A stretch of 64,000 nucleotides of DNA, from assembly GCA_017889635.1 (NCBI GenBank), contig JAGGAC010000003.1, positions 1-64,000 of the forward strand, given 5' to 3'. The notes under the pieces are model-generated. The model ran no database searches and had not been told where the DNA came from. It worked only from the letters and a program-made list of their open reading frames with translations. The position numbers and the translations under genes were made by a program. This stretch comes from Bacillota bacterium (GTDB lineage: Bacteria > Bacillota > Negativicutes > Sporomusales > CTSoil-080). How positions within the stretch are numbered: position 1 is the first letter of the stretch; each line of letters begins with the position of its first letter. Positions 16,461-61,006 of the stretch are shown here, one piece after another.

Positions 16461-17075
16461 TTATAATTCTTGGGGCAGAGTTTTATATAAGTACTCAACT
16501 GTTGTTGCCGTTTTTAATGCTTTTATGACATTAATATTCGGACAGGAATAGATAGTTGGCTCGTCGGTTTCTCCCAATTCTTGTCGGACATTAAATGCTA
16601 ATTTTTCAGTATCAGTACAGAATTGAGCATCTACTTTCGGCTTATTACCACGAGCATCAAGTCTAATCCACTTACTAAACTTTTTTAAATATACAGCATT
16701 TAATCCATGGAGGATTATTACAGGATGAGTTTCATCATCTAAAATAAGTTTCTGATAGCAGAACCCGGTTGGTATTTGTAAACATCGTAAAATTGCTGCG
16801 AATAGATGTGCCTTAGCAAAACAAATTCCATGCCTATTAAATAAAACTTCCGAGGCACTACATGTAACGATTTTAGCTTTTATATCAAACGAATGACTTA
16901 TCTTATCCCGTACGAATTCGTAGACTTCTTTTACTAGTTCAGTCTCGTTTAAGTTTCTTGATAGAAAGTAACTAGCCAGCTTTTGTATTTCAACGTTTGT
17001 ATAATCAATTATAGCGTCATTTATCAAATATTTATTCATATCGTTGGTTTCTGGAATAAGTATTGGTTTTTTCAT
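16461..17075 (-). CDS. Transglutaminase-like cysteine protease-fold protein
   Basis: This 204-residue cytoplasmic protein carries a transglutaminase-like core. The likely catalytic triad is Cys in RHGICFAKAHLFAAILRCL, His in ILHGLNAVYL and Asp in IRLDARGN, in the family's C-H-D order. Such bacterial proteins may be peptidases or act on isopeptide bonds; the substrate is unknown. The ATG follows AAGGAAGGA. It is monocistronic, and a perfect 42-base palindrome stands right at its promoter. Confidence 0.8.
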   Translation of the reverse strand: MKKPILIPETNDMNKYLINDAIIDYTNVEIQKLASYFLSRNLNETELVKEVYEFVRDKISHSFDIKAKIVTCSASEVLFNRHGICFAKAHLFAAILRCLQIPTGFCYQKLILDDETHPVIILHGLNAVYLKKFSKWIRLDARGNKPKVDAQFCTDTEKLAFNVRQELGETDEPTIYSCPNINVIKALKTATTVEYLYKTLPQEL

Positions 17076-17393: not shown

Positions 17394-17711
17394 CTAATAT
17401 TCCCTTTTACGAGGGAAGCACTGTCTAGGGAAGCATTGTCTAGGGAAGCACTGTCTAGGGAAGCACTGTCTAGGGAAGCATTGTCTAGGGAAGCACTGTC
17501 TAGGGAAGCATTGTCTAGGGAAGCACTGTCTAGGGAAGCACTGTCTAGGGAAGCACTGTCTAGGGAAACACTGTCTAGGGAAGCACTGTCTAGGGAAGCA
17601 TTGCCGATCAGCGTCTTCTATATTGTCGTCTTCCATAGTTCCGTAATCATATTCGTCATATTCAGCTGTTTCTATTTCGGGATCTTCCCATTCTTCATTA
17701 TACATAGTCAT
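17394..17711 (-). CDS. Cys-Phe-Pro-Arg-Gln tandem repeat protein
   Basis: This 105-residue protein has an acidic, Tyr-rich head (residues 1-36: EEWEDPEIETAEYDEYDYG and so on) followed by 13 identical QCFPR pentads and the tail KREY. Every fifth residue in the tail is Cys, which would allow dense disulfide or metal cross-linking. The gene at 60602-61006 has the same plan (acidic head then C-x-P-R-Q units), which supports this strand over the forward frame reading SREAL repeats. The ribosome binding site is AAAGGCGG. No signal peptide is present. A spore coat or exosporium role is my guess from composition in a spore former; the family is not one I can name. Confidence 0.7.
   Translation of the reverse strand: MTMYNEEWEDPEIETAEYDEYDYGTMEDDNIEDADRQCFPRQCFPRQCFPRQCFPRQCFPRQCFPRQCFPRQCFPRQCFPRQCFPRQCFPRQCFPRQCFPRKREY
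17409..17603. repeat. 13 tandem copies of a 15-base repeat
   Basis: The unit is AAGCACTGTCTAGGG on the forward strand. Differences between units are almost only silent (CAG/CAA for Gln, one TGC/TGT for Cys), so the protein repeat is under selection or was recently homogenised. Copy number may vary between strains by slippage. Confidence 0.92.
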
Positions 17712-17842
17712 TTAAGCGCCGCCTTTCATAGCATATTGGAGGGCTATTACATAATATGCTTACATTTATGTTAAAGTGATTGGTGGCACACGGTTGTAAT
17801 GTCTAGATTTGAAGATGTGGGCTGAGGGTGAGAAAATGAAAT

Positions 17843-18359: not shown

Positions 18360-19262
18360 TTAGGGCAAGTACTGCTTTGCTGTAAGTACAGGAGCAAATA
18401 GATCACCTAATAAATTTACACGTTCAAGTACCGCATCAGTGTCAAATACCAGTGTACTGATATCCTTAGTTCTCAAAGCCAGTTCTACTTCAGACCAGGT
18501 TACAGGAGTAGAAACAGTCGGCTTTTCGCAAGCTCGTAATGAGTAAACACATACCGTAGTTTTATGACGGTTATTTTGACTCCAATCAATAAAAACCTTG
18601 CCCTGGCGCAAACTTTTTCTCATATTAGAAACTACCTGTCCTGGATACTTTTTTTCTAACAGCTGGGCCAGGTTATGTGCGAAATCTTTAGTTTGGCTAT
18701 AGTTAACAAGTGTATTGAGAGGAACATAAACCTGTAGCCCTTTCGACCCCGAAGTTTTAGGGTAACTCTGCAAGTTCTTGGTTATAAAAAAATCCTGCAG
18801 CCATAATGCCACTTCAGCACAATCTACAATTGTTGCTGGCCAGCCTGGATCAAGGTCAAAGACCAGCATGGTCGGCACATAAATATCTTTTACTTGCGAT
18901 AGGGAGGTATGCAGCTCAAGTGCTGCTAAGTTAGCCGCCCAGACTAATGAAGGCAGGTCTTCTACCAGACAAAAATTAATATACTTATTATTACCTTCAC
19001 TCCATACTGGCGCAGTAGGCAGCCATCCTGGTCTTTTGGCTGGGCATTCCTTTTGATAAAAAAATTTTTCATCAACTCCATGAGGATAACGTTTTAACGT
19101 CAGCGGCCGTCCTTCCATGTGAGGCAGCAAAAAAGGCGCAATTCGTATATAGTAGTCAATCATCTGTCTTTTATTAAATCCGCATTTGGGGTAAAAGATT
19201 TTTTCAAGGTTAGAAAGCTTTAGTTGCGTTCCCTCAACATCAAGCACTGTTTTATCGGGCAC
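18360..19262 (-). CDS. ligD: LigD-type polymerase/primase domain protein of end joining
   Basis: This roughly 300-residue protein is the stand-alone polymerase module of bacterial non-homologous end joining. It matches the archaeo-eukaryotic primase fold: LEKIFYPKCGFNKRQMIDYY at the start, the two-Asp metal motif FDLDPG, SGSKGLQVYVPL, and the C-terminal FIDWSQNNRHKTTV. It would add or fill nucleotides at broken ends held by Ku. I prefer the GTG at 19262, which overlaps the Ku stop by 11 bases and follows GGAAG; a longer start at 19337 would overlap Ku by 86 bases. In many bacteria this domain is fused to the ligase; here they are separate genes flanking ku. Confidence 0.87.
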   Translation of the reverse strand: MPDKTVLDVEGTQLKLSNLEKIFYPKCGFNKRQMIDYYIRIAPFLLPHMEGRPLTLKRYPHGVDEKFFYQKECPAKRPGWLPTAPVWSEGNNKYINFCLVEDLPSLVWAANLAALELHTSLSQVKDIYVPTMLVFDLDPGWPATIVDCAEVALWLQDFFITKNLQSYPKTSGSKGLQVYVPLNTLVNYSQTKDFAHNLAQLLEKKYPGQVVSNMRKSLRQGKVFIDWSQNNRHKTTVCVYSLRACEKPTVSTPVTWSEVELALRTKDISTLVFDTDAVLERVNLLGDLFAPVLTAKQYLP

Positions 19263-20088
19263 GAGCTGTTCGCTTCCTTTGCTTAGGCTTTTTGGTTTCA
19301 GACTGATTCTTTTTAATTGCCGATAAACTAGCCTCAAGCGCCGCCATCAAATCAATTACTTTACCTTTTTGAGTTTCGGATGGTTTTTCTACAACTACTG
19401 TTTGACCCTCGGCTTTAGTATCAATCATTGCAAAAATCTTGCGGCGATACTCATCTTGATAATTGCCTGGTTCAAAATCTTTAGAAAGTGACTCAATAAG
19501 CTGTAAGGCAATTTTTAGTTCACGCTCGTCCGGTTCAACTTCGTCCTTAGGCATACTATCAAATTCTTTCAGTTCTATTATTTCGTCAGCAAAATACATT
19601 GTGGACAAACTCAGCACACTGCCAGTAGGGCGAATAGCGCTAAGATATTCTTTATTACGCAATACGAACTTTGCTATTGCGACTTTTTGCGATTTTTTCA
19701 TTGCTGCTAACAATAAGGCATATGCTTTGCCAGCTCCTTTATCAGGTATAAGATAATAAGATTGCATATAATATAACGGATCAATTTGTGCTAGCTGAAC
19801 AAAATCTTCGATTGCTATGCTGTGAGAGGTAGCTGGGCTTATGGCTGCTAAATCTTCATCAGTAATGACGACATAACGATCAGGCGATATTTCATATCCT
19901 TTGACAATCTCTTGATTTGCGACTTCAATACCATCTGTTGCACATACTTTTTTTAGCTGAATACGGCAGTTGTCACTTTTGCGCAGCTGATTAAATCGCA
20001 CAGTTTTTCTTTTTACCGTACTATACAACTTTATAGGTACATTAACAAGACCAAAGGTAATAGCGCCACTCCATATCGGTCGTGTCAT
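19252..20088 (-). CDS. ku: Ku DNA end-binding protein
   Basis: This 278-residue homodimeric ring protein binds double-strand ends and recruits LigD. The typical start MTRPIWSGAITFGLVNVPIKLYSTVKR and the core QIDPLYYMQSYYLIPDKGAGKAYALL are clear. The last 20 residues are very basic (KKPKQRKRTARAR), as in Ku proteins with a DNA-binding C-terminal extension. The gene begins one base after the ligase gene stop (ligase 20090-21091, Ku 19252-20088) and overlaps the polymerase gene, so the three form one operon in the order ligase, Ku, polymerase. Confidence 0.95.
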   Translation of the reverse strand: MTRPIWSGAITFGLVNVPIKLYSTVKRKTVRFNQLRKSDNCRIQLKKVCATDGIEVANQEIVKGYEISPDRYVVITDEDLAAISPATSHSIAIEDFVQLAQIDPLYYMQSYYLIPDKGAGKAYALLLAAMKKSQKVAIAKFVLRNKEYLSAIRPTGSVLSLSTMYFADEIIELKEFDSMPKDEVEPDERELKIALQLIESLSKDFEPGNYQDEYRRKIFAMIDTKAEGQTVVVEKPSETQKGKVIDLMAALEASLSAIKKNQSETKKPKQRKRTARAR

Positions 20089-20089
20089 T

Positions 20090-21091
20090 TCAGCTTCCTC
20101 CTAAGCTTGATTTATGTTCTCGTATAACTTCGTTAGCTTGCTTGTCTGTTCTTAAGCCTTTAAAAACAGGATGACGCAAAGTATTGTTAGACGTCCATTC
20201 GGTAAATTCAAATTCCCCGACAAGAACTGGTCGGACAAATATGGTTTTTCTATCAGGAATAATTGTATTAAAGGGATTGTGACTGATTATTAGGGACGAC
20301 AGTAACGTCCCTAAATATTCCAAACCGGCTGAGGTGAAACCGGTGCCGGCTTTACCGGCATAAATGAGCTGTTGTGTTTGATTATCAGCCTTAGATTCTG
20401 TAATTGTTACATTGTAATATCCTAGTAATAGGGCGCCAATTTTATTTCGTCTAGCACTATTTCCTGGTACAAAGCCGCCAATAACTAATTCCTGACGCTC
20501 GTGATTCTTAATTTTTAGCCAGTCGCCTGTGCGTTTGCCGGGAACATATATACTGCTTAAGCGTTTGGCTACAATCCCTTCTAGTCCTAAACTTGAAGCA
20601 GCTTTCAATATGTCCTGGCCTGAGCCTAGCTTATAGGCTGGTGTTTGCCAGGCTGGGCCGGTTAACTGTAATTTATCCAATATTTCTCGCCGCATAGTAT
20701 AAGAAAGATGCATTGTTGATTCACCATGAAGAGATAATAAATCAAAAATAATGTAAGTTACTGGATAATCTTTTTTACGAGTGTCAATAGTCGTGGCTGT
20801 AGTAAGCCCCATACGATGCTGTAATCCTGAAAATGAAGGCTGGCCGTTTTGACCAAGATGGACAATCTCTCCGTCTAAAATTAAATTTCGTTTAGTTTCG
20901 GATATGCCTAGTTCATTAAGCTCCGGGTATTGTGCTGTAACGTCTTTTTGATTGCGACTCATTATCTGTAGATGTTCATCTTGGTAATATAGTATGGCGC
21001 GCATACCATCCCATTTAATTTCAAATCCATATTCAGTATCATTTCTGGGCAGGTCGGATTGTTTGGCAAGCATAGGTTTAATGATTTTCAT
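20090..21091 (-). CDS. ligD: ATP-dependent DNA ligase of end joining
   Basis: This 333-residue protein seals breaks held by Ku. The adenylation motif EIKWDGMRA carries the catalytic Lys. Further ligase motifs include MSRNQKDVTAQYPEL, LILDGEIVHL, EGIVAKRL and DWLKIKNHERQELVIGGF, followed by an OB-fold with the C-terminal EFTEWTSNNTLRHPVFKGLR. The ATG at 21091 follows GAAGGTG; a GTG nine bases upstream overlaps that site. It is the first gene of the end-joining operon. Spore formers often carry this pathway for repair in non-replicating cells. Confidence 0.93.
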   Translation of the reverse strand: MKIIKPMLAKQSDLPRNDTEYGFEIKWDGMRAILYYQDEHLQIMSRNQKDVTAQYPELNELGISETKRNLILDGEIVHLGQNGQPSFSGLQHRMGLTTATTIDTRKKDYPVTYIIFDLLSLHGESTMHLSYTMRREILDKLQLTGPAWQTPAYKLGSGQDILKAASSLGLEGIVAKRLSSIYVPGKRTGDWLKIKNHERQELVIGGFVPGNSARRNKIGALLLGYYNVTITESKADNQTQQLIYAGKAGTGFTSAGLEYLGTLLSSLIISHNPFNTIIPDRKTIFVRPVLVGEFEFTEWTSNNTLRHPVFKGLRTDKQANEVIREHKSSLGGS

Positions 21092-21303
21092 ATCTGACAC
21101 CTTCAGTATTTAGCTTACTATATTTTTTACAGTTTACTGCAAATCTATGAAAGGGACAGCTGCAAAACTTCGCATATACTTGGAACGTGCGTTCGTATAA
21201 GTGGTTAAAGTAAAACACGGCTAGATAAAATCTATGCCGTGTTTTACTATTAGGATTTCAGTTCAGTTTTGAGTATCTGTTTGAGGTATTGTACAATTAC
21301 CAA

Positions 21304-60477: not shown

Positions 60478-60601
60478 GTTGTGGAGATTATTCTAATTAT
60501 TATTTATATGTTTTGCTATTCGGATCACTATTGCACCATAATCTCAGTACGGGCATATTATGTAATAAGTCATAGTAAAAGTAACCTAAAGGAGGGTGCA
60601 A

Positions 60602-61006
60602 ATGTCTGATCAAGATTATGAGTGGGATTATCCCGAATTAGAAGAAGATCAAGATTATGAGGGGGAAGATGAGCGTATAATTTGTTATCCTACTGGTTGT
60701 TATCCACGCCAATGTTATCCGCAGCAACAATGTTTTCCACGGCAGTGCGCTCCAAGATCTTGTTATCCTCGTCAGTGCTATCCGCAGCAACAATGCCGTC
60801 CGCGGCAGTGCGCTCCAAGATATTGTTATCCTCGTCAGTGCTATCCGCAGCAACAATGTTATCCGCGGCAATGTGCTCCACAGCAACAGTGCTATCCGCG
60901 GCAGTGTGCTCCACAGAAACAATGCAGTCCGCGGCAGTGTGCTCCACAGCAACAATGTAATCCTCGTCAATGCGCTCCGAGAATCGGAAGTACATCCCAA
61001 GAGTAA
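60602..61006 (+). CDS. Cys-x-Pro repeat protein, paralogue of 17394-17711
   Basis: This roughly 134-residue protein has an acidic, Tyr/Trp-rich head (DQDYEWDYPELEEDQDYEGEDE) and a tail of 19 cysteines, each followed two residues later by Pro. Units alternate between C-x-P-R-Q and C-x-P-Q-Q-Q, with x being Tyr, Phe, Ala, Arg, Ser or Asn. The plan is that of the QCFPR protein but with degenerate units. No signal peptide is seen. The ATG at 60602 follows AAAGGAGG. Cross-linked structural protein (spore coat or exosporium) or metal-binding protein are both possible; neither is shown. Confidence 0.75.
   Translation: MSDQDYEWDYPELEEDQDYEGEDERIICYPTGCYPRQCYPQQQCFPRQCAPRSCYPRQCYPQQQCRPRQCAPRYCYPRQCYPQQQCYPRQCAPQQQCYPRQCAPQKQCSPRQCAPQQQCNPRQCAPRIGSTSQE

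Follow-up and report, generated by a model that had tools for sequence, protein, structure and literature searches.

The repeat gene at positions 17394–17711 (minus strand) of the window, the whole 64,000-nucleotide stretch of DNA analysed here, encodes a protein that, on comparison with its homologues, is real and belongs to a family of spore-forming Negativicutes. The family proteins are probably precursors made under sigma-K control, in which a conserved head serves as leader. They would be modified at Cys-x-Pro by a maturase with RRE, radical SAM and SPASM domains, and built into the spore coat or exosporium. The proposed pathway is as follows. (i) Late in the mother cell, sigma-K would transcribe the 17394 gene, its paralogues and the single maturase gene, which lies on contig C36 of the same genome. 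(ii) The RRE domain of the maturase would bind the acidic W-E-x-P-E-I head as a leader. (iii) The enzyme would then modify the Cys of the tail's Cys-x-Pro units. For the 17394–17711 protein this would occur in trans, because its maturase is encoded on another contig. (iv) The modified proteins would be deposited straight onto the developing spore and incorporated into its coat or exosporium. Since they would be made inside the mother cell, no exporter would be needed. By analogy with the nearest solved enzymes, the likeliest chemistry is formation of a Cys-derived thioether, or another oxidation of the Cys beta-carbon.

The 17394–17711 product is a 105-residue protein with an ATG start and 13 Cys. 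An acidic head (37 residues ahead of the first Cys) is followed by 13 QCFPR units, exactly as the first-pass annotation describes, and by a KREY end; homologues share this plan of head plus tail. The Cys-x-Pro core is encoded by a tandem array of 15-bp units at 17412–17600 (minus strand; TRF: 12.6 copies, 95% match). All 13 units translate as QCFPR. They were said to differ only silently, and six of six codon differences from the unit consensus are indeed synonymous in the QCFPR frame; read in the plus-strand SREAL frame, the same six are four synonymous and two non-synonymous changes. That the gene is instead an open frame arising by chance in a simple DNA repeat, with SREAL as the frame that counts, is hardly credible. 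The array is open in several frames, and the plus strand over it in two: SREAL (143 aa) and LGKHC (82 aa). Against such an origin, homologues carry the same head, always on the CxP strand, and the differences within the QCFPR frame are silent only. The promoter and a likely ribosome-binding site, AAAGGCGG, read from the sequence at 17719–17726, also sit on the minus strand. The SREAL frame, which the first-pass annotation had left as a competitor, is not the conserved one. Matches on other contigs of the same genome (down to E 2e-25) and in 28 of the 60 relatives searched argue that the repeat protein is not a product of chance.

The 17394–17711 protein matches no Pfam family. Directly downstream of its gene, on the same strand, 16461–17075 (minus) encodes a transglutaminase-like protein (PF01841). 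Apart from the loci that cover the window gene, the fetched loci hold no homologue of it, and this neighbour is therefore treated as accidental. Three adjacent genes close to the repeat gene, at 18360–21100 (minus), look like a bacterial end-joining set made up of Ku and of two LigD-like genes, one for the polymerase part and one for the ligase part; these names are candidates.

A second member lies in the window at 60602–61006 (plus strand). It encodes 134 aa with the head MSDQDYEWDYPELEE, 19 Cys and a looser CYPRQ/CAPQQ tail. First taken for a degenerate paralogue, it is a real family member: it has the same head as the 17394 gene, and its promoter core is identical. Searching the genome of the window returned both of these copies and members on contigs C13, C123, C33, C119 and C21, and a further member adjoins the maturase gene on C36. 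Another gene, at C113:84780 (L118), has the family head and a YYGCRPR tail; it escaped the protein search and was detected by its promoter pattern. Nine members are counted in this genome, two of them in the window, a figure that may be low, as diverged members such as that on C113 escape sequence search. Homologues with the same plan on the same strand are abundant elsewhere. Named hosts include Sporomusa acidovorans, S. ovata, S. silvacetica, S. malonica and Lucifera butyrica.

The family plan consists of a head that has the motif W[ED]xPE[IM] and abundant Asp, Glu and Tyr, and a tail of Cys-x-Pro units. Among 29 peptides, 396 of 400 Cys (99%) have Pro at +2, whereas residues +1, +3 and +4 vary. 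The distance from one Cys to the next is five residues in 280 cases, six in 41 and four in 19. Judged from these peptides, the invariant element is C-x-P, a looser rule of which the CFPRQ pentad is one form. A conserved head joined to a variable CxP tail matches the arrangement of a leader and its core. The 17394–17711 protein is without the PK that precedes the WExPE motif in the members encoded in the maturase operon.

Distribution ties the family to sporulation. A survey of 250 genomes of the class gave family matches in 48 and SpoIVA matches in 48. Four of the former (G144, G189, G239 and G246) were left out of the count as spurious, having the repeat part only and no head, so that 44 remain. 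SpoIVA is present in 43 of these 44 (Fisher p 1.6e-41, a value that ignores relatedness), and five SpoIVA genomes are without the family. The one exception to occurrence in spore formers is G061 (93% complete, about 200 contigs), in which family and enzyme are both present and SpoIVA was not detected. Genome sampling is uneven, and co-occurrence is confounded by the relatedness of spore formers. No complete genome sequence of a Negativicutes spore former was available to a large survey of sporulation genes (PMC3533761).

Family and maturase genes are preceded by a common promoter, CAC-N17-gCATATTATGTA, which is found before both window members and the enzyme gene of the same genome. Upstream of the 17394 gene, consensus matching places a sigma-K-like -10 element, CATATTATGTAAT, at 17746–17758 (minus strand). 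The -35 AC lies 17 nt upstream of it at 17776–17777 (minus), inside TCAC at 17776–17779. For the second member, the same -10 element CATATTATGTAAT is matched at 60554–60566 (plus) and the AC at 60535–60536 (plus), again at a spacing of 17 nt. The -10 part is present at 29 of 37 non-operonic members and at 31 of 34 maturase genes. Of the remaining three maturase genes, two are cut by the end of the locus. It occurs at none of the 19 members directly behind a maturase gene, and 5.7% of random 160-nt stretches contain it. In 38 of 60 aligned promoter sites an AC lies at spacing 17. Within the window's genome CATATTATGTAAT occurs eight times, seven of them ahead of family members. Sigma-K promoters have the form mACm, a gap of about 16–17 nt, then gCATAnnnTA, with which the family promoter agrees. 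From this consensus match we infer that the promoter is used by sigma-K, late in the mother cell. For the sigma-K regulon of B. subtilis, a five-nucleotide -35 element, a ten-nucleotide -10 element and a gap of 14–16 nt have been described (PMC517825). The first-pass annotation had proposed a disulfide-cross-linked coat or exosporium protein, or a metal-binding one. Its placement in an outer layer of the spore appears likely, given the restriction to spore formers and the sigma-K-type promoter.

Two observations concern the same regulatory context. The eighth CATATTATGTAAT site precedes a DUF2642 (PF10842) gene at C68:51343 (L117), the sole non-family gene in the genome with the element and a candidate for a further spore protein. 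The sigK gene of this genome appears split: C62:2345–2773 (minus, L130) corresponds to profile positions 2–145, and C34:3906–4136 (plus, L131) to positions 140–216. Each part adjoins a gene that reads as a serine recombinase. The arrangement, with its parts on separate contigs, looks like a skin-type insertion.

A gene of about 420 codons immediately precedes the members whose head reads PKWExPEM. Its product contains a Radical_SAM and a SPASM domain, each scoring above its Pfam cut-off, and falls far below the cut-off of all NCBIfam models listed. The CxxxCxxC motif and a seven-Cys SPASM pattern together provide ten Fe–S cysteines, all invariant in 31 maturase sequences. In the window's genome the seven-Cys pattern is CX10GX4CX38CX2CX5CX2CX19C; that of the sactisynthases RumMC1/2 is CX13GX4CX36CX2CX5CX2CX18C (PMC8172795). 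By sequence, SkfB, CteB, SuiB and anSME (4k37, E 1.7e-12) are among the nearest solved structures. A match to viperin in a defence library covers the radical SAM core only and was set aside.

The full-length model of the maturase is of low confidence, and the fold search used the N-terminal domain alone, for which the 84-residue model is confident (pLDDT 86.8). Its best structural matches are RREs: the lasso B1 protein 6jx3 (Z 9.8), TbiB1 (9.3), PqqD (7.7) and PbtF (7.6), followed by TigE (7.2), CteB (6.0) and SuiB (5.7). Foldseek E values for the RRE matches are only about 0.01–0.1 or weaker; nearly all top matches are RREs. Pfam PqqD is matched below the cut-off only. As modelled, the N terminus is a RiPP-recognition (RRE) fold. 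The maturase gene of the window's genome, C36:481–1728, encodes a protein 72% identical to the query; a family gene is right behind it, and the shared promoter stands in front. A second maturase paralogue, 37–39% identical, was seen in three genomes of one genus (G004 C26:24247–25380, G011 C5:151936–153069 and G020 C14:40533–41666).

Enzyme and substrate genes are linked. A family gene is immediately downstream in about 23 of the 31 enzyme loci examined, and immediately upstream in one (L031). In another (L108) a diverged peptide follows the enzyme; its head is of the family type, and it has three CxP. Such linkage of precursor and maturase holds for one member per genome and does not extend to the 17394–17711 gene, whose maturase is on contig C36. 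An enzyme match was found in 43 of the 44 family-positive genomes (p 9e-45, uncorrected for relatedness), that in G020 being the distant paralogue only. Within SpoIVA-positive genomes, 42 have both, three have neither, and one and two have a single partner (p 0.002). The family is present and the maturase was not detected in G085 (85% complete); the enzyme is present and the substrate was not detected in G043 and G045; and G003, G032 and G050 have SpoIVA with neither.

The operon context bears on what the products are for. In four genomes read widely, the operon is divergent beside genes that, from their sequences, we take to be tig-clpP-clpX. A secreted RiPP made during sporulation, antimicrobial or signalling and sactipeptide-like, as with the sporulation killing factor, would accord with an RRE/radical SAM/SPASM enzyme nearest to SkfB by sequence and with a leader plus Cys-rich core. 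This explanation is nevertheless improbable: no exporter, peptidase or immunity gene stands next to the operon in those four genomes, its place beside tig-clpP-clpX is constant, up to nine substrates are dispersed over a genome, and the promoter is of a late mother-cell type. Rated slightly lower still is a protein that stores or buffers metal in the spore through its Cys array, with or without enzymatic modification. Dense Cys behind an acidic head would suit such a function; no metal-resistance genes occur in the operon neighbourhoods read, the strictly conserved Pro does not give the CxxC or CxC spacing of metal thiolates, and the distribution tracks sporulation and the radical SAM enzyme.

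Pairing of CxP peptides with this kind of enzyme recurs outside the class. Among 348 genomes sampled across the phylum, only one match came from a genome other than the window's own, a distant enzyme of 33% identity in G360, a SpoIVA-positive genome of another class. There (L127, 704–1283, plus strand) two small CDP/CSP/CNP peptides are encoded just upstream of the 33%-identical maturase, with leaders unrelated to those of the family. The clearest indication that this enzyme clade acts on CxP comes from this separate pairing. The pairing also weighs against an explanation that we regard as possible though unlikely: that the 17394–17711 protein is a plain disulfide-cross-linked coat or exosporium component, like CdeC or the keratin-associated proteins of hair, and that the enzyme acts on its operon neighbour alone, or on some other target. 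The very high Cys content and the repeat with Pro spacing are compatible with cross-linking, as is the weak similarity of one paralogue to the keratin high-sulfur profile, which stays below cut-off at E 0.002. The spore link, through SpoIVA distribution and the sigma-K-like promoter, would be the same. Cys-rich exosporium builders, CdeC and CsxA, are known (PMC6101409, PMC7333573). Apart from the pairing in another class, what speaks against plain disulfides is the head motif common to operonic and dispersed members, the identical promoters of the enzyme and the dispersed members, and the near-complete co-occurrence with an RRE enzyme. With an RRE/radical SAM/SPASM enzyme, a partner absent from the first-pass annotation, directly upstream of one member in most genomes, the evidence points to enzymatic modification of Cys-x-Pro, and the disulfides or metal binding of the original proposal become, on their own, a less likely account.

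Modification by the maturase, in trans for the window's member, could take more than one chemical course. SkfB and CteB suggest thioether formation by analogy. In the QCFPR array only Phe, Pro, Arg or Gln could act as thioether acceptors, and no obligatory acceptor residue is evident. The sulfatase-maturing enzyme anSME converts Cys to formylglycine in a CxPxR motif. Since CxP is the heart of that motif, oxidation of the Cys beta-carbon is a real alternative to a thioether. The chances seem about even that a single RRE/radical SAM/SPASM enzyme modifies tens of Cys-x-Pro sites on dispersed repeat proteins as part of a core late-sporulation programme that builds the spore surface, perhaps by a new Cys-x-Pro-directed reaction that leaves, for example, formylglycine-like aldehydes or Cys thioethers every five residues.

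Spore coats of Negativicutes have hardly been described at the protein level, and the substrates, one enzyme and one promoter provide a class-wide candidate set. If the proposed pathway is correct, radical SAM maturation of RiPPs would reach beyond small secreted peptides, to structural proteins that carry arrays of identical sites. RiPP-type enzymology would then serve a structural layer of the cell, the spore surface would contain a building block that is unusual in being modified by an enzyme, and the family would offer a natural setting in which Cys chemistry is repeated along a protein.

In the open-licence literature searched, a scope that leaves most subscription journals outside, no radical-SAM-modified spore coat protein or matching family is described; together with the Pfam and NCBIfam comparisons, this agrees with the first-pass view that no named family has this plan. 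Three library models were considered and rejected. Keratin B2 (PF13885) reached 18.4 bits against a gathering cut-off of 27, in one paralogue only. The elgicin/penisin lantibiotic model (NF033457) reached 37.9 against 40 bits, but its best-matching stretch is a single residue, an artefact of composition. CefA (NF038108), a RiPP peptide that likewise has Cys at every fifth position, was approached by two paralogues at 12.9 and 11.4 bits against a cut-off of 30; the window protein gave no match, and none of 41 genomes exceeded the cut-off. Keratin-associated high-sulfur proteins also use short Cys/Pro repeats in tough outer material, but belong to other organisms and have no maturase on their side. 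CdeC and CdeM of C. difficile and CsxA of C. sporogenes resemble the family as Cys-rich proteins of the spore's outer layer, from which the pentad CxP plan and the radical SAM partner appear to set it apart (PMC6101409, PMC7333573). In anSME, a radical SAM/SPASM relative, the substrate Cys also has Pro at +2; the system described here differs in that it needs no Arg at +4, has many sites in each protein and involves no sulfatase. Closest in plan are the RRE-dependent radical SAM/SPASM RiPP systems CteA/CteB, SkfA/SkfB and RumC/RumMC (ruminococcin C), which share the leader and Cys-rich core. The maturase likewise has an RRE and CxxxCxxC, and its seven-Cys SPASM pattern is close to that of RumMC1/2. 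In contrast to these systems, the substrates are large repeat proteins whose CxP units can number 21 or more. A genome has about nine of them, dispersed, under a sporulation-type promoter and, in the four genomes read, with no exporter seen.
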